From a virus: DNA of 24,008 nt. Location of the stretch: IMG/VR virus record IMGVR_UViG_3300042516_003337, positions 1-24,008 of that record. One strand, written 5' to 3'. The notes beneath the pieces were generated by a model. The model was given only the letters and a program-made list of their open reading frames with translations, did no database searches and was not told where the DNA came from. Position numbers and translations under genes: made by a program. Shown here in pieces: positions 696 to 11,040 of this stretch (the first letter of the stretch is position 1; every line of letters begins with the position of its first letter).

Positions 696-2234
696 TCAAT
701 TGAGTTGATAAATTAAATTACCCACAGGTAAAACAAAATTACCATTTATGATTTTAGTAGATTCATTTTTAAAAACTAAAACATCTTTATTACTTTTAGT
801 AAAAATTAAAAAGTCTGTTTTATACGGTTTAACTTGACCTGTGCCGTAAACCACATAACTATCATCAATCTTTTTAAAATTAGTGTAAGGTTTTATTTGT
901 GCGGTGTAAGTTATGGAATCAATTACTATCTCACAATCAACACCCCCAACCATGTCTTCAGTACTCCCTAATTTACCAATCTGAACAACGTTTTCCTCAC
1001 CAAATTTTTTCTTTAAAATATTAACGGTTGAGTTTTCAGTTTTATCTCCAATTGAATTTGTTTTAGTTAAAGTTGACATTAGGTTTGAAAACGTTGGTGA
1101 CTGTATGTTAAAAATTCTGTCTTTGTATTTTTCAATTACATTAACAAATTTTTTAGTTTCACTAATCTGAACAAAGGGAGGTTGTCCAATCAATTTAATT
1201 TTAGGTTGTTTTTCATATTCTAAAACTTTATTAACATCATTTAATAAAATACAAAAACAAGTGTAGTTAGTGTTAAGTTTATTAATTACTGACCTACCTT
1301 CAGTCTCTAAATCATAGATACCTGAAGATTCATTTTCACCATATTCACCTTTTTCATAGTAATTTTCTTTGAAGACTTCTTTTAAAATAGAATCTATTTT
1401 TAATCTAAAAATTTGTTTAACCTTTGGATTAATGTTAAAAATAAATCGTATTGCTTCATTTTCTTCTCTCGAACATCTTTCAGAAATACCTTCACTAATT
1501 ACTTGTTTAATAATATTCCCTTCATTTAATTTTCTATTAGAGCGTAATGAAAATAATTCGTCTACAAAATCCCAATTAACACATTTCCAAAAGTTAGAGA
1601 TATACTCGTCTCTTTTATTTTTGTATTTTAGATAATATGCGTGTTCCCATAAATCTAACCCTAATATTGGGTACCCACCACTTTTAACAACATTCATTAA
1701 TGGGTTATCTTGGTTAGGGGTGGACATTATCTTTAATTGATTTTTTTTAGTTAAAACTAACCAAACCCAACCTGAACCGAATCTTTCTTTAGCAATTTCT
1801 TCAAATTCAGTTTTAAATTTTTCAAAACTTCCAAAATCGGATTTTAATTTTTTCAATAAGTCTCCTTTAGGAGTTTGTTTTTTTGGGGATAACATTTTCC
1901 AAAACAAAGCGTGATTGAACGCTCCTCCCGCATTGTTTCTAATTGTGGTATTGTATTTACTAATTGATTTAATAATTTCTTCTAATTCTAAATCACCGTA
2001 ATCCTTTTTTGACAGAGCTTTATTTAGTTTATCAACATAACCTTTATAATGTTTGTTATAGTGATAAGACATAGTCTCAGAATCGATAAATTGTTTTAAA
2101 GATGAATAAGAATATGGTAATTTTTCTATACCAATCTTTTTCATTTCATTAAGGAAATGTAATTTGTCTTGGTTTTTTTCTTGTAAGAGTATTTGTTCGT
2201 TAAGTAAATGAACTCTTTCTTCTAATTTGTTCAT
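696..2234 (-). CDS. Mn-type superoxide dismutase fused to a C-terminal PD-(D/E)XK-like domain
   Basis: Residues about 38-230 form a complete Fe/Mn superoxide dismutase, an enzyme that converts superoxide to oxygen and peroxide. The four metal ligands are visible: H58 (SYHYNKH), H108 (AFNHALFW), D194 and H198 (DLWEHAYY). The gateway residues H62 and Y66 are kept. G104 together with Q175 (STPNQDNP) is the manganese-type signature; iron enzymes have Gln and Ala at these places. A charged leader of about 35 residues comes first and holds four L-x-E triplets (L4, L11, L17, L28). After the dismutase comes an unassigned region of about 190 residues, then a C-terminal module with GGVD (430-433) and AQIKP (Q446, K448). 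That is a nuclease-like D...QxK pattern shared with the gene at 4897-6387. Bacterial dismutases are about 200 aa, so the 512 aa length is exceptional. The dismutase call is firm; the nuclease call is inference. Confidence 0.9.
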   Translation of the reverse strand: MNKLEERVHLLNEQILLQEKNQDKLHFLNEMKKIGIEKLPYSYSSLKQFIDSETMSYHYNKHYKGYVDKLNKALSKKDYGDLELEEIIKSISKYNTTIRNNAGGAFNHALFWKMLSPKKQTPKGDLLKKLKSDFGSFEKFKTEFEEIAKERFGSGWVWLVLTKKNQLKIMSTPNQDNPLMNVVKSGGYPILGLDLWEHAYYLKYKNKRDEYISNFWKCVNWDFVDELFSLRSNRKLNEGNIIKQVISEGISERCSREENEAIRFIFNINPKVKQIFRLKIDSILKEVFKENYYEKGEYGENESSGIYDLETEGRSVINKLNTNYTCFCILLNDVNKVLEYEKQPKIKLIGQPPFVQISETKKFVNVIEKYKDRIFNIQSPTFSNLMSTLTKTNSIGDKTENSTVNILKKKFGEENVVQIGKLGSTEDMVGGVDCEIVIDSITYTAQIKPYTNFKKIDDSYVVYGTGQVKPYKTDFLIFTKSNKDVLVFKNESTKIINGNFVLPVGNLIYQLN

Positions 2235-2253
2235 GTGGCTAAAATTAATATAC

Positions 2254-2261
2254 TATAAATA
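2254..2261 (-). promoter_or_regulatory. TATTTATA promoter-like box before the dismutase fusion
   Basis: TATTTATA on the minus strand, 19 nt before ATG 2234, in the 42-nt gap behind the helicase gene. It is an exact copy of the box seen at 688-695, 7617-7624, 11977-11984, 13654-13661 and 15578-15585. Confidence 0.5.
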
Positions 2262-2276
2262 ATCTAAAACTTTGAA

Positions 2277-4037
2277 TTATCTCAGCGTATTAATTTTATT
2301 CATCATTTCTTCGATGATGTCAGACTTGTTTAAATTGTCCCCCATCACAGTTTCAAATATATTTTTCTTGTTTTTTAACATATCATAAATAATCCCTTCA
2401 ATCGTGTTTTCAAAGATTGGGTAATATACAGAAACATTAGATTTTTGACCATATCTATATGACCTGTCTTCAGCTTGAGAGTGGTCTGATGGTACAAATG
2501 ACAGGTCGTTCATAATAACCGCCTCCGCAGCGGTTAATGTAATACCAACTCCTGCGGCTTTTAAGTTACCAACAAAAACTTTTATTTTTTCATTTTCTTG
2601 AAATTGGTCAACCGCATATTGTCTTTGTGGTTTAGTACAACTACCGTCTAAAAAAACGGCTTGTTTACCAAAATGGTCTTTAATTTTTGTTAACGTGTCA
2701 GTGAAGTTTGTAAAAATAATAACCTTTTTGTCTTGGTCTATTATATTTTGAGCCAATTCTATAGTAGAGTCGACTTTTTCATTTGCGATAACTTGTCTAA
2801 CTTTCATTAATTTTGAAAATTGGACTGTTAATGAATTTGACTCGTCGGTTTTATTGTCATACCAATCATAGTATTCGCCCATTAAACCTTCATACATTTT
2901 AGATTTTAATCTCAAGTATACAGGTGTTATTATTTTATCAGGTAAATCTAATACATCTTCTTTTAATCTTCTTAATACTTGTTTGGAGGTTCTGTCTCTA
3001 AGCTCTTCTAAATTAGAAGCTCCTGTCACATTCCATACTTTTCTATTACCAGCTTTAAATTGATACCCTTGACAATATCTAATTGCGTAAGCCATCCAAT
3101 TTTGGGCGACAGGACTTTCAATTAGACTTAATAAATTGTAATAATTCATAGGTCTTGATGTCATTGGAGTCCCTGTCAGTAACCAAAGTTTGTCTACTTT
3201 TTTAGAAAAATTATTAACAAGTTTGGTTCTTTGGGCTTGAGCGTTTTGAATATAATGAGCTTCATCAATAATGATTAATTCGGGGTCAAATTGATATATT
3301 AGTGATTGTTCTTTTTCTTTAATATCATAAAAATTTTTTAGAATATCGTAATTAACAATAACAAAATCATGTTCAGTTGAAAAATTCTTCCCTTCGGCAA
3401 TATAAACACTTCTATCGGTATAATTTCTAATCTCTCTTTCCCAATTTATTTTAAGTGATGCAGGACAAATTATTAATATTCTTTTCGCATTACTTTCTAA
3501 AGCGGCGATTATCGTTGATGTAGTTTTACCCAATCCCATATCATCCGCTAAAATAAATCTCTTTGACCCTGCTAATTTTTCAATAGCTTCTTTTTGGTGC
3601 TCAAGAGGAGGTCTATGAGAATATTTAGAATAATCTATATCAATCTTTTCAACTTTATGGGTTTTTAATAACGCGGCTTTAGGGACCCAAAAATCATGGT
3701 TTTCTTGAGACTCGAATATTTTACCCCATATATGATATGATTTTTCTTTTTCGGCTAATAATTTCTCTACCCAAATTTGTTTTGGAATTTCCATGTAGAG
3801 TTTTTCATCTGCGATTTTCTTTGCGAAATAAGGGTCCAAGTCAACCCATTTTTTTCCTACTTTTGGGGACTTATCATGAAAAGATATAATATAGTCTGAT
3901 TGAGACCTAGTCGGATAAAATTTTTTATTATTATCTTTCTGATTTTTTAATTTTAGTATATAGTTATTCGCCCCTGAATATGAATCCAAGATTGAAAGTG
4001 CTCTCTGTTCAATTAGATTTGATATATTTTCAGACAC
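2277..4037 (-). CDS. SNF2-family DNA helicase/translocase
   Basis: A superfamily 2 ATPase of the SNF2 type, expected to translocate on double-stranded DNA and remodel forks or protein-DNA complexes. Motifs in order: a Q-like LEHQKEA near residue 145, Walker A DDMGLGKT (165-172), DEAH at 258-261, motif III LLTGTPM (286-292), motif V AAGVGITLTAAE (494-505), and motif VI QAEDRSYRYGQ (521-531) with both arginine fingers R525 and R528. The first 130 residues are an N-terminal part I do not recognise. The start is GTG at 4037: an in-frame stop lies six codons upstream and no ATG occurs before residue 82. It is the first gene of the minus-strand block and shares a 51-nt divergent promoter region with the gp14-like gene. 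It is compact (586 aa) compared with cellular SNF2 proteins, as usual in phages. A replication, repair or recombination role similar to T4 UvsW is possible but not shown. Confidence 0.93.
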   Translation of the reverse strand: MSENISNLIEQRALSILDSYSGANNYILKLKNQKDNNKKFYPTRSQSDYIISFHDKSPKVGKKWVDLDPYFAKKIADEKLYMEIPKQIWVEKLLAEKEKSYHIWGKIFESQENHDFWVPKAALLKTHKVEKIDIDYSKYSHRPPLEHQKEAIEKLAGSKRFILADDMGLGKTTSTIIAALESNAKRILIICPASLKINWEREIRNYTDRSVYIAEGKNFSTEHDFVIVNYDILKNFYDIKEKEQSLIYQFDPELIIIDEAHYIQNAQAQRTKLVNNFSKKVDKLWLLTGTPMTSRPMNYYNLLSLIESPVAQNWMAYAIRYCQGYQFKAGNRKVWNVTGASNLEELRDRTSKQVLRRLKEDVLDLPDKIITPVYLRLKSKMYEGLMGEYYDWYDNKTDESNSLTVQFSKLMKVRQVIANEKVDSTIELAQNIIDQDKKVIIFTNFTDTLTKIKDHFGKQAVFLDGSCTKPQRQYAVDQFQENEKIKVFVGNLKAAGVGITLTAAEAVIMNDLSFVPSDHSQAEDRSYRYGQKSNVSVYYPIFENTIEGIIYDMLKNKKNIFETVMGDNLNKSDIIEEMMNKINTLR

Positions 4038-4056
4038 TATTCGTTTTACGTTTTAA

Positions 4057-4064
4057 TAAAAATA
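4057..4064 (-). promoter_or_regulatory. One-mismatch promoter-like box (TATTTTTA) before the helicase
   Basis: TATTTTTA followed by TTAAAA on the minus strand, 19 nt before GTG 4037. It differs at one position from the TATTTATA box and lies back to back with the plus-strand box at 4078-4085. Confidence 0.3.
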
Positions 4065-4077
4065 ACAATTGAATGGA

Positions 4078-4085
4078 TATTTATC
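4078..4085 (+). promoter_or_regulatory. TATTTATC promoter-like box before the neck operon
   Basis: TATTTATC lies only 3 nt before ATG 4089. The sequence matches the box at 7662-7669 (both continue CAAT). The spacing would put a usual start of transcription at or past the ATG, so either the leader is essentially absent or this copy is not a promoter. Confidence 0.35.
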
Positions 4086-4088
4086 AAT

Positions 4089-4604
4089 ATGTCAACAAAT
4101 AAAGTTCCAATAACAAGAATAGGTAAGTTTTTCGGTGCCGAAGATTATAACTTAGACCTCTCAATAGGTGAGGAGTGGTTATATGGTGATATGAACTTTA
4201 CTTTAGTCCTTTACAGGGTAGATAGATTAAAAACAAAAACAGATGATGTTTATGGTGAAACTGTAAAAGATGGTGTAAAATTTTTACCCCCTGTTGAGTT
4301 TAAAGCATTTGTACAAATTTCAGCCCCTGAAAATAAAAACTTAGGAAATTCTAAAATAAATCAAACCGAACCTGGTAACATCAGAATATCAATCTATCAA
4401 AGACAATTGGATGAATTAGGTATTGATATAAACTATGGAGATTATATTGGATATTATGAAACTGAGAATAGAGTTAGGTATTATACTGTAAATAATGATG
4501 GTCGTGTAATATCTGACAACAAACATACCTATGCAGGGTATAAACCATTTTACAGAACAATTACCGCATCGGCGGTTATTGACAATGAATTTAGAGGGTT
4601 ATAA
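4089..4604 (+). CDS. gp14-like neck protein
   Basis: A 171-residue soluble protein without membrane segments. The sequence has an early GEEWLYGD motif, a run of hydrophobic/tyrosine residues (NFTLVLYRVDRLKTKTDD), an acidic DVYGE, then NYGDYIGYYETENRVRYYTV. The C-terminal YKPFYRTITASAV looks like a beta structure. This layout (a 'YGxxxxxVxR...D.yGE' segment, later 'GDyI.y....R.y.V') resembles the gp14 neck proteins of T4-like phages, which close the head above the tail. Its position just before a gp15-like protein matches the T4 order 13-14-15. The stop overlaps the next start (TAATG), so the four genes from here to 7424 look translationally coupled. The family assignment is by pattern only; another head-tail connector is possible. 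Confidence 0.45.
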   Translation: MSTNKVPITRIGKFFGAEDYNLDLSIGEEWLYGDMNFTLVLYRVDRLKTKTDDVYGETVKDGVKFLPPVEFKAFVQISAPENKNLGNSKINQTEPGNIRISIYQRQLDELGIDINYGDYIGYYETENRVRYYTVNNDGRVISDNKHTYAGYKPFYRTITASAVIDNEFRGL

Positions 4605-4900
4605 TGAATATAATAATTACAGAAAATCAGATTGGTGTATTAAGAAGAATATATGAAATAGGTGAATTTGTTAATTATGCTATTGATAGTTTGAATGACG
4701 ACATTAAACAAGGTGGGCCAGGAAATAAACCTGACAACTTTGGAGTTTATGAAAATTGGGTGATACAAAGAGTTAGTAGAATATTTAAAACTAAGTACCC
4801 TGACATTGATTTTGAAAGATACAATTTTTTAACGATTGTAGGGGGAGAATATAATGATAAAATTAGAAGGGGATTTAATAAAGTTAGAAAGAAAAAATGA
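4604..4900 (+). CDS. Small protein with N-terminal ITE-Q tag, function unknown
   Basis: A 98-residue basic protein. Its N-terminus MNIIITENQIGVLRRIYEIG matches the first residues of the next gene (MKILITEKQ) in the pattern M-(K/N)-I-x-I-T-E-x-Q, although the rest is different. The body is predicted helical and ends with a lysine/arginine-rich tail (GFNKVRKKK). (L/I)-x-E triplets occur at residues 5-7, 16-18 and 19-21. The gene overlaps its neighbours at both ends (TAATG upstream, ATGA downstream), so it is made together with them. I do not recognise the fold. The shared tag suggests a common destination, possibly the capsid interior, but nothing in the sequence proves this. Confidence 0.75.
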   Translation: MNIIITENQIGVLRRIYEIGEFVNYAIDSLNDDIKQGGPGNKPDNFGVYENWVIQRVSRIFKTKYPDIDFERYNFLTIVGGEYNDKIRRGFNKVRKKK

Positions 4901-6387
4901 AAATATTAATTACAGAAAAACAAAAAACAAAATTATTAGAAAAAATTTCTAATCAAGAAGTTATTTGTGATAATTGTGGTTGGTCTTGGGACTTAAGTGA
5001 TGGTGGTAATGACCCGTTTATTTGTCATAAATGTGGTCATAACAATTCTGAAGAAGATTACCGAGGTAAAAAAGTTATGGTTTATTATAATTTACATAAA
5101 CACACATTTTCTGTAACATATAAGTCAAAAGTTATTTTACATGCCGATTATGTAAAACTTAAAAATGTTGAGTTTAGAGTTAGACAGGGCGGGAAACAAC
5201 GTGTTAGACAAGAAATGTCAAAGAATGTTCACGCCTTTGTGATTGGTACTTTAGTAGATTATTGTGAATATCCTTGTGATAACATACCTGAAGAATCGTC
5301 AAGTAAAATTGTTACATATAACCCATATAAATATGATTCGTTTGTTTATAAAGACACTGAAGAACCTGTTTATACCGCCAAGGAAGTTGACATGATAAAT
5401 CAAAAAAACAAATTATTTGTAATTTCTGAAATTGTGTCAAGTAGATTGATAGAGTCTGAAGAAACCTCTGAATCAGAACCGACAAAATATACCTACACCA
5501 CATTAGGTCTTTTTGAAAAAGGCACAACTAAAAGATATTATTTTAATAGTGTTCTACCAGTTAATGACCCCGACCCAATTGATGGAAAAATAAAGATTGA
5601 AGGAGCGTCAGGAGATTTCATTTTTAACAAAGGGGATTTAATAATAAACCCTGAAAAAAATACTATTGCAATAACTAAAGAAAATTTTGAATTAGCATAC
5701 CCGAAATATCAAGGAGTTAAAAAAACAGAAGAGATTGGTATAACTTCATCAAATATTAGAACTGCGTTAGAAAAAGCTTTTCCTAGACATTGGAAAGCGG
5801 AGACACCCATTTTTTCACCAGGTTTGAGAGGTATACACACAATAGGTAGTAAAATTGGGGACCCTAGAGAAGATTGGTCGATAATGAATTTTTTTGATAC
5901 AAAAGAAGAAATACACAATTTAATTTATTTAAAATATTTTGATGATGTTTTTGAAGGGGATATTGTTGATTGGATGGTAAAACTATTTAAAAAAGATAAA
6001 AACTTTGTCAAACTTTTAGTTGATAGACAATGGAAATCAATTGAAAGGGGATTTAAATTAGAAAAGGATTCGGTTGACAAGTTTTTAAATAAAATGAATA
6101 CCAATAACGTTGTATATTTTCCTTTTGGTTCTAAAATGGATAGATGGGGAGGTGTTGATGTTATAATTGACGGTGTTAGTTATCAAATAAAACCTTTATC
6201 TTCCTATACCGATAAAAACGGGGTGTTTACAATTAATACTTATGGTATGAGAGATTATTCAGGTAAAAAAGTAGATAAAATAGCTTTCTCAAAAAATGAT
6301 GAGATATTAATTTTTGATAATCGTAATTACAAAGTCGTTTCAAAGACAATGGCGATTTTTAATGAAATGCCTCAAATTTTAAAATAA
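4897..6387 (+). CDS. Tagged zinc-ribbon protein with C-terminal PD-(D/E)XK-like module
   Basis: A 496-residue modular protein. Residues 1-17 are the tag MKILITEKQKTKLLEKI. Residues 22-50 form a zinc ribbon with two CxxC knuckles (C24/C27 in CDNCGWSW and C43/C46 in CHKCGH) joined by a DLSDGGNDPF loop. Residues about 54-122 form a compact domain (GKKVMVYYNLHKHTFSVTYK ... NVHAFVIGTL) that I have the impression recurs in phage proteins but cannot name. A long middle region follows, with DWSIMNFFDTK and DIVDWMVKLF. The C-terminal 80-100 residues carry GGVD (418-421) and YQIKP (Q430, K432), the same spacing class as in the dismutase fusion at 696-2234. The pattern resembles the D...(D/E/Q)xK core of PD-(D/E)XK nucleases, with Gln replacing the usual acid. 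Start and stop overlap both neighbours (ATGA and TAATG). Enzymatic activity is inference. Confidence 0.75.
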   Translation: MKILITEKQKTKLLEKISNQEVICDNCGWSWDLSDGGNDPFICHKCGHNNSEEDYRGKKVMVYYNLHKHTFSVTYKSKVILHADYVKLKNVEFRVRQGGKQRVRQEMSKNVHAFVIGTLVDYCEYPCDNIPEESSSKIVTYNPYKYDSFVYKDTEEPVYTAKEVDMINQKNKLFVISEIVSSRLIESEETSESEPTKYTYTTLGLFEKGTTKRYYFNSVLPVNDPDPIDGKIKIEGASGDFIFNKGDLIINPEKNTIAITKENFELAYPKYQGVKKTEEIGITSSNIRTALEKAFPRHWKAETPIFSPGLRGIHTIGSKIGDPREDWSIMNFFDTKEEIHNLIYLKYFDDVFEGDIVDWMVKLFKKDKNFVKLLVDRQWKSIERGFKLEKDSVDKFLNKMNTNNVVYFPFGSKMDRWGGVDVIIDGVSYQIKPLSSYTDKNGVFTINTYGMRDYSGKKVDKIAFSKNDEILIFDNRNYKVVSKTMAIFNEMPQILK

Positions 6388-7707: not shown

Positions 7708-10700
7708 ATGGCAAACAAAGTATTCGTATCCCCTGGGGTATATACATCAGAAGTAGATTTAAGTTTCGTAGCCCAAAGCGTTGGGGTTACTACTTTAGGT
7801 ATTGTGGGTGAAACAATTAAAGGACCTGCATTTGAACCTATTTTTATTAGAAACTTTGATGAATTCTCTACATATTTTGGAGGAACGTCTCCAGAGAAAT
7901 TCATAAACACCCAAATTCCTAAGTATGAGGCGGCATACATTGCTAAATCATATTTACAACAATCTAATCAGTTGTTTGTAACTAGAGTTTTAGGACTTTC
8001 GGGTTACGACGCTGGACCTTCTTGGTCTATAAGTACAAAGGCTAACGTTGACTGTAGTACGGTTGATTTTTATTGTTTGTCTAGCACCACTGTAAACTGT
8101 GTTGAACAATGTGATGAATATCTAACTATAGATTATGCAATTGACTTTACAGGATGTACAAATAATTCATCGACCATTGTCTTAGACACTGCAGACATTC
8201 CTGATTACCTTTTAGAAAAATTATATTTACCATATGAGAATTTTGATGGTAGTACTTCTACATTATATGAAAATATGATTAATCAAATTTTTGATGTGTT
8301 AAGAACTCCATCTACAGAGGCAACTTCTATTTACTACTACGGACCAATTTCAGGAGATGTTTATAGTGCGTTGTCAACAACATTTACCGCGGAAACTAAC
8401 GTATTCGGTGTTGAGAACGTTAACGCTTCTGAGATTAATTATTGTGCATCTCAAAACGACCCATGGTATTATGCAACTTTTGATAACTTAGGAAACGCAA
8501 TTTATAGTGGATTCTCATTCTTTAGTGTTGTATCAGATTTACAACCTGTACCTGTTACAACTACAACAACAGTACCATTAACCACACCAACACCTTCACC
8601 ATCACCTGTTAATCCATGTATATCTCCAACACCACTTCCTAATGTAACACCAACACCTTCACCTGTTCCTGTAAATTGTTACACAGGTAAATTGATTGGT
8701 ACATTATATGTGTTTGATGGTGTTGCTTACACTGACTATGACGATTTAGTAATCGCAACATTCCGTTCAAGAGGATTGGCAACGTATTCTTCTGATGACG
8801 GAGCGGTATACGAAGTTACAGGATTAACTGACGTATCAATGGATTGTACAAATGGTTATAGTGCGGTTACTAAAAACCCATATGCAACTTTTGGTCTAAA
8901 CGTAACTAATAATGATGGTCAAAGTTTCTTCTTTGAAACATCATTCCAAAACTCAGACCCTAAATATCTTTCTAAAGTGTTTGGAGCATCTAACTTCGCA
9001 AAACCAAGAAGAGAAGTTCCTTTATTTGTCGAAGAAAGGTTCCAAGCGTTATTAAATTACGCATGGAGAAAAGGATACATTAGAGGATTAAATTGTAGTT
9101 TAACCGCTTTACCTGACGCAAGACAAGGTAATGACCCTACATCAATCGCGTGGTACCTTGAAAAATATCAATCACCTATGTCACCTTGGGTTGTATCTGA
9201 ACTTAGAGGTAATAAAGTTTACAACCTGTTCAAAGTAACAACAATCGCTGACGGTGACGCGGCTAATATCGAGGTTAAGATTTCAATTGCTAACATTTCA
9301 TTTGGAAACGGAACATTTGATTTATTTGTTAGAGATTTCTTTGACTCTGATTCAGCACCTACAGTATTAGAAAAATTCACTAACTGTTCACTTGACCCAA
9401 GTAACAACAATTTCGTTGGTAAAAAAGTTGGTTCAGTAGACGGTGAATATGAATTAAACTCTAAATTTATAATGTTGGAACTTAATCCTGACGCTCCTGT
9501 AGACGCATTACCTTGTGGATTCCAAGGTTACGCATTTAGAGAATACGCAGGTCTTAGACCTCCATTCCCAATATACAAAACTAAATATGACTTCCCAGGT
9601 GAGGTTGTTTATAACCCACCATTTGGTTTATCTTCAGGAGCGGACGATATCGTAAGAAGTGCAGGAGATAATGTGAGAAGAACATATTTGGGTATTTCTG
9701 ACACTATTGGTTTTGACGTTGATTTTTACACTTATAAAGGTAAACAATTACCATTGGATGTTTGTACTGATGTTTCAGGTGATGAATGGGCATACAAAAC
9801 TAGAGGTTACCACATGGATAAAAACGCAAGTGGAATTACAATTTCAGGAGCATTTAGTACAAGTGGAACACCAGCATTCTTTGTTGGAGCATCTGAATTT
9901 ACTCAAGACCCTGAAGATGAAACTAACCAATACTATAGATTATTCGCACGTAAGTTCTCATTCTTATGTTCAGGAGGTTTTGACGGTTGGGATATTTACA
10001 GAGAATATAGAACCAACCAAGACCGTTTTGTTCTAGGTAGGTCAGGTTATTTAAAAGGAGCGTGTCCTTCGTTTAGATACCCAACTGCATCAGGGTGGGG
10101 AGCGTTTAAACAAATCACAGTTGGTGACAATACTCAAGATTGGGCAAACACTGACTACTACGCATACTTATTAGGACAAAGAACTTTTGCTAATCCTGAA
10201 GCGGTTAATATTAACGTATTTGTAACACCAGGTATTGATTATTTAAATCATCCAGGATTGGTAGGTACCGCGATTGACATGGTTGAAAACGATAGAGCGG
10301 ATTCCTTGTACATCTGTACTACACCTGACTACAATATGTTTGTACCTCAAACAGGTGACCAATTAGACTTGATTTATCCTCAAGAAGCGGTTGACAACTT
10401 AGAAACTGCGGGAATCGATTCTAACTATACATGTACTTACTACCCTTGGGTTCTAACTCGTGATACTGTAAATAACACTCAGATTTACATTCCAGCAACT
10501 GCTGAAGTTTGTAGAAACTTAGCGTTAACAGATAATATCGCTTTCCCATGGTTCGCATCAGCGGGTTACACTCGTGGTATAGTAAACGCAATTAAAGCAC
10601 GTAAGAAGTTAACTCAAGAAGATAGAGATACTCTATATAAAGGTAGACTTAACCCAATCGCTACTTTCTCTGATGTTGGTACGGTTATTTGGGGTAACAA

Positions 10701-11040
10701 AACTTTACAGATTAGAGAGTCTGCACTTGACAGAATAAACGTTAGAAGATTGTTACTACAAGCTCGTAAGTTGATTTCAGCGGTTTCTGTAAGATTACTA
10801 TTCGAACAGAATGACGAGAAAGTAAGACAAGACTTCTTAAATGCGGTGAATCCTATCTTAGACGCAATTAGAAGAGACAGAGGTTTATACGATTTCCGTG
10901 TAACAGTTTCTTCAGATGCTGCTGACTTAGATAGAAACCAAATGACAGGTAAGATTTACATCAAACCAACTAAGTCACTTGAATTCATTGATATCACATT
11001 CTACATTACTCCAACAGGAGCGTCGTTTGAAAATATCTAA
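7708..11040 (+). CDS. gp18: Contractile tail sheath protein (gp18-like), enlarged
   Basis: The subunit of the contractile outer tail tube. The N-terminus FVSPGVYTSEVDLSFVAQSV and the following GIVGETIKGPAFEPIFIRNF are the usual sheath start (PGVY.sE.D..., G..G...kGPa..P..i....ef...fG). The C-terminal domain is also canonical: AFPWFASAGYTRGIV (from about 945), LNPIATFSDVGTVIWGNKTL, then INVRRLLLQARKLISAVSVR and the final TGKIYIKPTKSLEFIDITFY. With 1110 residues it is much longer than T4 gp18 (about 660). The extra length includes a Cys-rich stretch (about 112-155) and a Thr/Pro linker (about 282-322, PVTTTTTVPLTTPTPSPSPV) leading into a further domain; these probably decorate the outside of the tail. 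Codon use is richer in C- or G-ending and CGT codons than in the adjacent genes, as for a highly made protein. A strong terminator follows. Confidence 0.95.
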   Translation: MANKVFVSPGVYTSEVDLSFVAQSVGVTTLGIVGETIKGPAFEPIFIRNFDEFSTYFGGTSPEKFINTQIPKYEAAYIAKSYLQQSNQLFVTRVLGLSGYDAGPSWSISTKANVDCSTVDFYCLSSTTVNCVEQCDEYLTIDYAIDFTGCTNNSSTIVLDTADIPDYLLEKLYLPYENFDGSTSTLYENMINQIFDVLRTPSTEATSIYYYGPISGDVYSALSTTFTAETNVFGVENVNASEINYCASQNDPWYYATFDNLGNAIYSGFSFFSVVSDLQPVPVTTTTTVPLTTPTPSPSPVNPCISPTPLPNVTPTPSPVPVNCYTGKLIGTLYVFDGVAYTDYDDLVIATFRSRGLATYSSDDGAVYEVTGLTDVSMDCTNGYSAVTKNPYATFGLNVTNNDGQSFFFETSFQNSDPKYLSKVFGASNFAKPRREVPLFVEERFQALLNYAWRKGYIRGLNCSLTALPDARQGNDPTSIAWYLEKYQSPMSPWVVSELRGNKVYNLFKVTTIADGDAANIEVKISIANISFGNGTFDLFVRDFFDSDSAPTVLEKFTNCSLDPSNNNFVGKKVGSVDGEYELNSKFIMLELNPDAPVDALPCGFQGYAFREYAGLRPPFPIYKTKYDFPGEVVYNPPFGLSSGADDIVRSAGDNVRRTYLGISDTIGFDVDFYTYKGKQLPLDVCTDVSGDEWAYKTRGYHMDKNASGITISGAFSTSGTPAFFVGASEFTQDPEDETNQYYRLFARKFSFLCSGGFDGWDIYREYRTNQDRFVLGRSGYLKGACPSFRYPTASGWGAFKQITVGDNTQDWANTDYYAYLLGQRTFANPEAVNINVFVTPGIDYLNHPGLVGTAIDMVENDRADSLYICTTPDYNMFVPQTGDQLDLIYPQEAVDNLETAGIDSNYTCTYYPWVLTRDTVNNTQIYIPATAEVCRNLALTDNIAFPWFASAGYTRGIVNAIKARKKLTQEDRDTLYKGRLNPIATFSDVGTVIWGNKTLQIRESALDRINVRRLLLQARKLISAVSVRLLFEQNDEKVRQDFLNAVNPILDAIRRDRGLYDFRVTVSSDAADLDRNQMTGKIYIKPTKSLEFIDITFYITPTGASFENI
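8584..8663 (+). repeat. 17-bp direct repeat in the Thr/Pro linker of the sheath gene
   Basis: ACACCAACACCTTCACC occurs exactly at 8584-8600 and again at 8647-8663. Both copies are in the same reading frame and encode the TPTPSP-type linker. Such repeats can allow gain or loss of linker segments, or exchange of the flanking domain by recombination. Confidence 0.8.

Follow-up and report, generated by a model that had tools for sequence, protein, structure and literature searches.

The systems nearest by mechanism to the one proposed here are the internal proteins of phage T4 and the phage polyvalent proteins. In T4, short N-terminal propeptides direct the internal proteins into the head, and L/I-X-E is the cleavage motif of the prohead protease gp21 (PMC9026906, available text); gp23 loses 65 residues (PMC9958956, available text). 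Head proteins of the giant phage SPN3US are cut after AXE (PMC10052503, accessible part), and DdrB of phage P1, a polyvalent protein, is processed before packaging (PMC5512222, accessible part). Here we analyze a stretch of 24,008 nt (the window), positions 1 to 24,008 of the IMG/VR virus record IMGVR_UViG_3300042516_003337, whose source is a large uncultured virus of bacteria. Two open reading frames (ORFs) are in question, both present as stated in an earlier note on this DNA: P0002 (512 amino acids; 696..2234, minus strand), a fusion of superoxide dismutase to a predicted nuclease, and P0001 (496 amino acids; 4897..6387, plus strand), a fusion of a zinc ribbon, a gp82-like domain and a second copy of the predicted nuclease.

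As in T4 IPI-III and Alt, which have a capsid targeting sequence and are cut by gp21, an N-terminal extension ending in L/I-x-E precedes a functional domain, and the same protease family is found in relatives of the window phage. The differences are that several cuts are predicted here in one chain, with release of two enzymes, and that the putative propeptide of the dismutase fusion has ~30 residues vs 10–19 in the T4 internal proteins (PMC9026906, available text). Polyvalent proteins are likewise multi-domain, some of them predicted to be packaged and injected (PMC5512222, accessible part); the processing proposed here is by a prohead protease, not by a built-in peptidase. None of the polyvalent hallmark domains (MPTase, ART, ParB-like and others) was found in a Pfam scan of the two window proteins, which leaves room for remote versions. 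A dismutase is packaged in the virion of giant eukaryotic viruses; the Megavirus enzyme is of the Cu,Zn type, in contrast to the Fe/Mn type here, and the accessible part of that paper (PMC9405923) mentions no nuclease fusion. A packaged antioxidant enzyme in our case is a proposal. We found no description of a phage dismutase–nuclease fusion or of a packaged phage dismutase in titles and abstract openings, a search with most of the subscription literature outside its scope; the words ‘superoxide’ and ‘dismutase’ are absent from the available text of a paper on aquatic large phages (PMC12619734).

The earlier note had seen the same kind of segment, GGVD followed by QIKP, at the ends of both proteins, and sequence comparison bears this out. 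The C-termini have 33 of 109 residues identical (30%; BLASTP, E = 3e-8), the remaining BLASTP matches between the two proteins having E-values of 0.19 or worse. Profiles of the two families (eight rows each) were aligned by hhalign over residues 279–501 vs 286–486 with probability 92% and E = 6.2e-7. A hidden Markov model (HMM) built from dismutase fusions only, run with filters off against 21 zinc-ribbon fusions, gave E-values from 1.1e-12 to 1.7e-6 (20 rows listed); the best value among 210 shuffles was 2.5e-3. Unrelatedness of the two segments, which the note had named as the outcome that would speak against its proposal, is thus the opposite of what we found: they are homologous by sequence. 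The common region is longer than was noticed. Given the span of the hhalign alignment, it begins ~100 residues or more upstream of GGVD and comprises ~220 residues in all; in its upstream helical part GRSVINKLNTNY of the dismutase fusion aligns with ‘WSIMNFFDTK’ of the zinc-ribbon protein, and the GGVD...QIKP domain follows.

Reading of the shared segment as a PD-(D/E)XK-type nuclease domain with Q-x-K as the third motif and a conserved helical part in front of it is supported by motif conservation and by a predicted fold. In the dismutase fusion, residues 249–512 (699..1490, minus strand) comprise the helical part and the PD-(D/E)XK-like domain (379–512), with the predicted active site D433...Q446-x-K448 at 891..938 and an upstream Glu, E400, at 1035–1037. 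In the zinc-ribbon protein, a beta-rich segment and the nuclease module (368–496) occupy 5455..6384 (plus strand), with E389 at 6061, D421 at 6157 and Q430/K432 at 6184–6192; the Asp, Gln and Lys of both proteins are at the residues named earlier. Each of E400, D427, D433, Q446 and K448 is present in 92 of 92 distinct dismutase fusions (62 clusters at 95% identity, 32 at 80%). The D...Q-x-K motif and the helix Glu are kept in all 15 rows covering both fusion types, and D..D..QxK(P/G) in 141 of 142 unique complete module ORFs. The exception is a 360-residue ORF (L302:4802-5884) in the interval between nuclease and neck genes, which matches a module profile and has no D..QxK signature.

Support for the fold comes from the AlphaFold2 model of the zinc-ribbon protein; the dismutase fusion was assigned by homology, its model giving dismutases or dismutase-fold chains in the 50 listed rows of each fold-search program. 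With VIA-align, the first 19 rows for the zinc-ribbon model consisted of MepB and 18 nucleases that we take to belong to the PD-(D/E)XK superfamily; the next row, an unrelated protein, had Z 3.0. All 19 alignments start at residues 382 to 398 and end at 495–496. The Z-scores were 7.3 for I-Ssp6803I (root-mean-square deviation 3.5 over 97 residues), 6.6 for NhoI, 6.6 for SPARDA, 6.0 for Hjc, 5.8 for DpnI and 3.7 for RecU. As the top value is modest, we put the weight on the consistency of the structural list. Foldseek against PDB placed Hjc resolvases at ranks 3, 6 and 7, and against viral models (BFVD) the second match was a 501-residue ‘superoxide dismutase’ of an uncultured phage (E = 9.0e-9, 278 columns); since the query has no dismutase, this protein is probably the same fusion, matched via its C-terminal part.

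The order helix-Glu, Asp, Q-x-K and the predicted fold agree with the PD-(D/E)XK superfamily (Hjc/RecU, DpnI, NhoI, I-Ssp6803I), from which the window module differs by the extra helical part upstream, by its phage-specific fusions and by having no strong family match. The best E-values were 3.3e-4 in Pfam, 0.011 in NCBIfam, 0.0023 in PHROGs and 0.013 in PADLOC, scattered over unrelated families (NCBIfam, a second Pfam and a second PHROGs scan used 10 rows, PADLOC 15). Weak matches to Pfam RE_MjaI appeared in 5 of 15 members (best E = 0.0013) and to DUF6602 in 2 of 15 (best 0.021) and 3 of 10 (best 0.0025). Weak matches to NagA_C, ABC-3C MC4, Phage_Orf51 and Phage_capsid were taken as chance, and the single match from a sequence-profile search of solved structures (E = 1.1) was disregarded. 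Nuclease activity of the module is a prediction from its conserved residues and the model.

The dismutase fusions have a further feature, unmentioned in the earlier note. In the 92-row alignment Glu reaches 95% or more in no more than six columns (E30, E53, E197, E238, E248 and E400). Of these, E53 and E197 are part of the dismutase and E400 is in the nuclease helix, and E30, E238 and E248 are located at the borders propeptide/dismutase, dismutase/spacer and spacer/nuclease, with L, I or M two residues upstream in 99–100% of rows and a variable residue between. The conserved [L/I]xE at domain borders suggests that the parts are separated after synthesis. On the minus strand of the window, residues 1–30 (2145..2234) form a variable N-terminal helix that ends in site 1, L28-N29-E30, and is a putative capsid-targeting propeptide; residues 31–238 (1521..2144) contain the Fe/Mn superoxide dismutase domain (Pfam match 37–226) and end in site 2, L236-N237-E238; and residues 239–248 (1491..1520) are a 10-residue spacer ending in site 3, I246-S247-E248. 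Position 28 is L in 51 and I in 41 rows, and Glu is present in 92 of 92 rows at sites 1 and 2 and in 90 of 92 at site 3, where L/I/M precedes by two residues in 99%. The model has a helix at residues 3–32, at low confidence (predicted local distance difference test, pLDDT, of 59/53/46 by block).

In the zinc-ribbon protein (plus strand) a candidate site is found at the domain junction. The zinc ribbon (residues ~20–55; 4954..5061), whose cysteines C24, C27, C43 and C46 are invariant in eight rows and whose Pfam zinc-ribbon matches are weak (E of 0.21 or worse), is followed by a Phage_L5_gp82 domain (residues 57–170; 5065..5406) matching PF25735 (E = 5.1e-31, 107.5 bits vs a cut-off of 27) and phrog_586 (E = 1.8e-31). 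The candidate junction site is L184-I185-E186 (5446..5454). The linker after the gp82 part contains [L/I]xE in all 21 zinc-ribbon fusions (14 clusters at 95% identity) vs 13% of 16-residue background windows. In relatives the gp82 part is also a stand-alone protein of 137–195 residues, and the stand-alone versions stop before the position of the junction site.

The zinc-ribbon protein starts with a short tag, ‘MKIxITE-x-Q/K’ (MKILITE in the window, 4897..4917), whose I-T-E conforms to L/I-x-E. In two large relatives, 17 of 368 and 13 of 245 predicted ORFs begin with this pattern, vs shuffled means of 0.3 and maxima of 2 and 3, an excess that is partly by construction, as the pattern was defined after examples had been seen. 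Residues past the tag Glu are conserved as well, so the tag may serve for docking, instead of or in addition to cleavage. Many of the proteins with this MK[ILV]n-T-E-x-Q/K tag are small and otherwise dissimilar (window 4604–4900 and 4897–4917; relatives L202-L228).

A protease of the gp21 family and a capsid protein are present in some related contigs. Among eight of these, Peptidase S77 was detected in two (195 kb and 322 kb), both with a dismutase fusion, and Gp23 in four; Gp23 was not found in an 86-kb contig that encodes both window proteins at 100% identity, and the window was searched for S77 only. The 65-residue cut of T4 gp23 falls at SFLTE|A in its sequence; capsid proteins of three relatives read SFLINE|A or SYLINE|A with the Glu at residue 60, and dismutase fusions read, e.g., FLNE|M or FLTE|M.

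The dismutase is an optional part of its fusion. The domain itself was identified by Pfam (PF02777, 2.6e-41; PF00081, 2.4e-22) and by structure (Z up to 21.1), and H58, H108, D194 and H198, presumably the Fe/Mn superoxide dismutase metal ligands (H/H/D/H), are invariant in eight rows. A scan with the nuclease half of the dismutase fusion found relatives in 421 of 598 pattern-matching stretches; the dismutase is absent at 15 of 78 loci examined from the best 80. These 15 loci encode six distinct proteins of 294 or 309 residues, which retain the N-terminal helix (propeptide) and the last [L/I]SE site (site 3). Where flanks reach, the neighbors are unchanged by eye (helicase, neck protein), with extra ORFs between them in L302 and L303. 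Sod_Fe_C had no match in any of the 11 contigs that were searched among the 15, a 318-kb contig included; the control was detected in 12 of 14 genomes. In a tree built from 38 dismutase, 5 dismutase-less and 8 zinc-ribbon modules, two changes are required to explain the dismutase-less state, and the starred branches force two; some branches are long, including that to the zinc-ribbon root. One change is a loss: compared with its sister L177, L252 has a 609-bp in-frame absence between flanking DNA 79% and 87% identical, and it still carries ‘MKKIEIEKL’, which corresponds to the start of the dismutase. From the tree we infer that the second dismutase-less lineage also arose by loss. Since the nuclease persists where the dismutase was lost, the nuclease is the constant element. 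The earlier note had proposed a swappable tail on different cargo; the different partners stand, and the notion of a tail added to cargo gives way, in view of the in-frame loss, the tree and the dismutase-less loci, to a constant nuclease with an optional dismutase.

What the analysis shows is homology of the two segments, conservation of the catalytic residues and of the sites, a predicted fold, loss of the dismutase in frame, and the presence of a protease and a capsid protein in related contigs. On balance, we think it probable that the two proteins are polyproteins that are packaged into the head and split there by the prohead protease, yielding a dismutase, a gp82-like protein and nucleases. 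Targeting of the precursor to the prohead would be the task of the variable N-terminal helix or of the short MKIxITE tag, and a protease of the T4 gp21 type would then cut after [L/I]-x-E at domain borders. The dismutase fusion would release a Mn/Fe superoxide dismutase (31–238) and a nuclease (249–512); the zinc-ribbon fusion would give a gp82-like protein along with a second nuclease. Released proteins would enter the host along with the genome; there the dismutase would quench superoxide, and the nuclease might attack host or competing DNA. Packaged phage DNA could be spared by specificity for unmodified or branched DNA, or by activation only in the host. If so, a phage precursor that can be cleaved into dismutase and nuclease would represent a new way of delivering several enzymes in fixed ratio. 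The natural loss seen in some relatives shows that the nuclease can do without the dismutase cassette.

Our confidence is evenly divided on a broader statement: that in a widespread lineage of large T4-like phages polyproteins cleavable by the prohead protease are used, one propeptide bringing an optional cassette (dismutase, gp82-like or others) and a constant PD-(D/E)XK nuclease into the capsid, to be freed only post-assembly, and that the K-[ILV]n-T-E tag may mark at least a dozen head cargo proteins per genome. Proteins of uncultured large phages mostly have no assigned function; if the statement is true, tag and cleavage sites would serve as a sequence rule by which the injected cargo of such phages can be listed.

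Several observations weigh against these proposals. With respect to the fold, the top VIA-align Z of 7.3 is within the range that the tool calls possible without kinship, plain Foldseek had no PDB match at E ≤ 0.001 for the zinc-ribbon model (the first match being unrelated), and the mean pLDDT of that model is 61 (69 for the dismutase fusion). With respect to homology, the HMM with default filters missed the zinc-ribbon copy of the 195-kb contig (E = 1.5e-7 with --max), and the helical part by itself matches weakly (best 1.8e-5 against zinc-ribbon fusions; 0.03 in another run). As to cleavage, a further conserved LxE, at E197, is situated within the dismutase fold, the sole other [L/I/M]xE conserved at 90% or more; Met follows site 1 directly in 92 of 92 rows vs Ala in the capsid protein; and three of the 17 module proteins outside the dismutase-type and gp82 classes have no early site. 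L/I-x-E occurs at a rate of 0.018 per residue in dismutase fusions, i.e. in about half of random 45-residue stretches, so counts of early sites weigh little. LTE of T4 and INE of the relatives do not share a MAFFT column, and their distances to the conserved VRR differ; the capsid cut-site match is therefore one by motif. Finally, S77 was found neither in the 86-kb contig encoding both proteins nor in the window, both of which are possibly fragments.

The same data bear on other explanations. The dismutase fusion could be an uncut intracellular enzyme, the nuclease processing phage DNA in a resolvase-like way with the adjacent SNF2-family helicase, the dismutase being auxiliary and L/I-x-E a linker feature. 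A helicase gene does adjoin the nuclease gene in the window and, by eye, in dismutase-less relatives, and the resolvases Hjc and RecU are among the VIA-align matches; we nevertheless regard this as unlikely, because Glu invariant at exactly three borders amid variable residues is unexpected for plain linkers and because a distance of 20 bases separates the fusion gene from one that is neck-like (head-tail adaptor match, E = 0.0014), in a tail gene cluster. We give little credence to the idea that the PD-(D/E)XK fold acts as a DNA-binding or head-core anchor without catalysis: a module joined to several different partners and with no known activity might be such an anchor, which would be expected to lose some of the catalytic set, and the full set including the helix Glu is kept in 92 of 92 fusions. 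Chance resemblance of the two segments with a coincidental motif, for which the shortness of the motif and the copy missed with default filters could be cited, is practically ruled out by BLASTP, hhalign, the HMM searches vs shuffles and the BFVD match.

With the whole dismutase fusion as query, 513 of 599 pattern-matching stretches encode a relative; the best 80 cover the query nearly end to end, and the other 433 may include plain dismutases. The zinc-ribbon protein gave 415 relatives in 461 stretches (among the best 80, many match the first 180 residues only, with the gp82 part as a protein of its own) and its nuclease half 59 in 117. The search for other N-terminal partners suggested in the earlier note was productive: in the 23 loci inspected of these 59 we saw modules with an N-terminal tag only, with a zinc ribbon without gp82, and with other N-terminal segments. 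Over all loci, unique complete module ORFs included 101 with dismutase, 18 with gp82, 6 of the dismutase type without dismutase and 17 others, class counts that are not unbiased frequencies as the scans were seeded with the window proteins.

In cultured phages the module was not found by tblastn at E ≤ 1 with the window's own sequences as queries, which leaves remote versions possible. There the whole dismutase fusion matched through its dismutase part only in all 29 records listed, and the zinc-ribbon protein through residues 29–172 only in the 30 listed of 629 records. A single scan of bacterial genomes, in which the C-terminal half of the dismutase type was the query, gave no relative: 111 stretches fit the pattern and none was confirmed.

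Three of the module proteins were noted for their architecture. In a 582-residue protein (L343:3674-5422) the nuclease module is followed by an internal stretch resembling the tag (‘KIITE’), then by a zinc ribbon and, by eye, a part like a metallopeptidase with HEIRHE, as if two tagged genes had been fused. In another (L364:3335-4717), a tagged N-terminal segment of unassigned kind and a SINEEISE stretch precede the module, and a third (L356:3449-4645) lacks an early L/I-x-E site and has its N-terminal repeat in duplicate.

Between the dismutase and zinc-ribbon ORFs the window contains the SNF2-family helicase gene and two smaller ORFs. The window also contains a contractile-tail gene cluster, with tail sheath, tail tube, baseplate hub and baseplate wedge proteins identified by PHROG matches (four of seven further proteins scanned). 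In two large contigs, an HNH-endonuclease-like ORF was seen by eye close to the major capsid gene (L213:17487-18221 and L223:4886-5599). The tail-sheath protein of the window (7708–11040; phrog_23, E = 2.7e-56) is long, with 1110 residues and a Thr/Pro/Ser-rich stretch.

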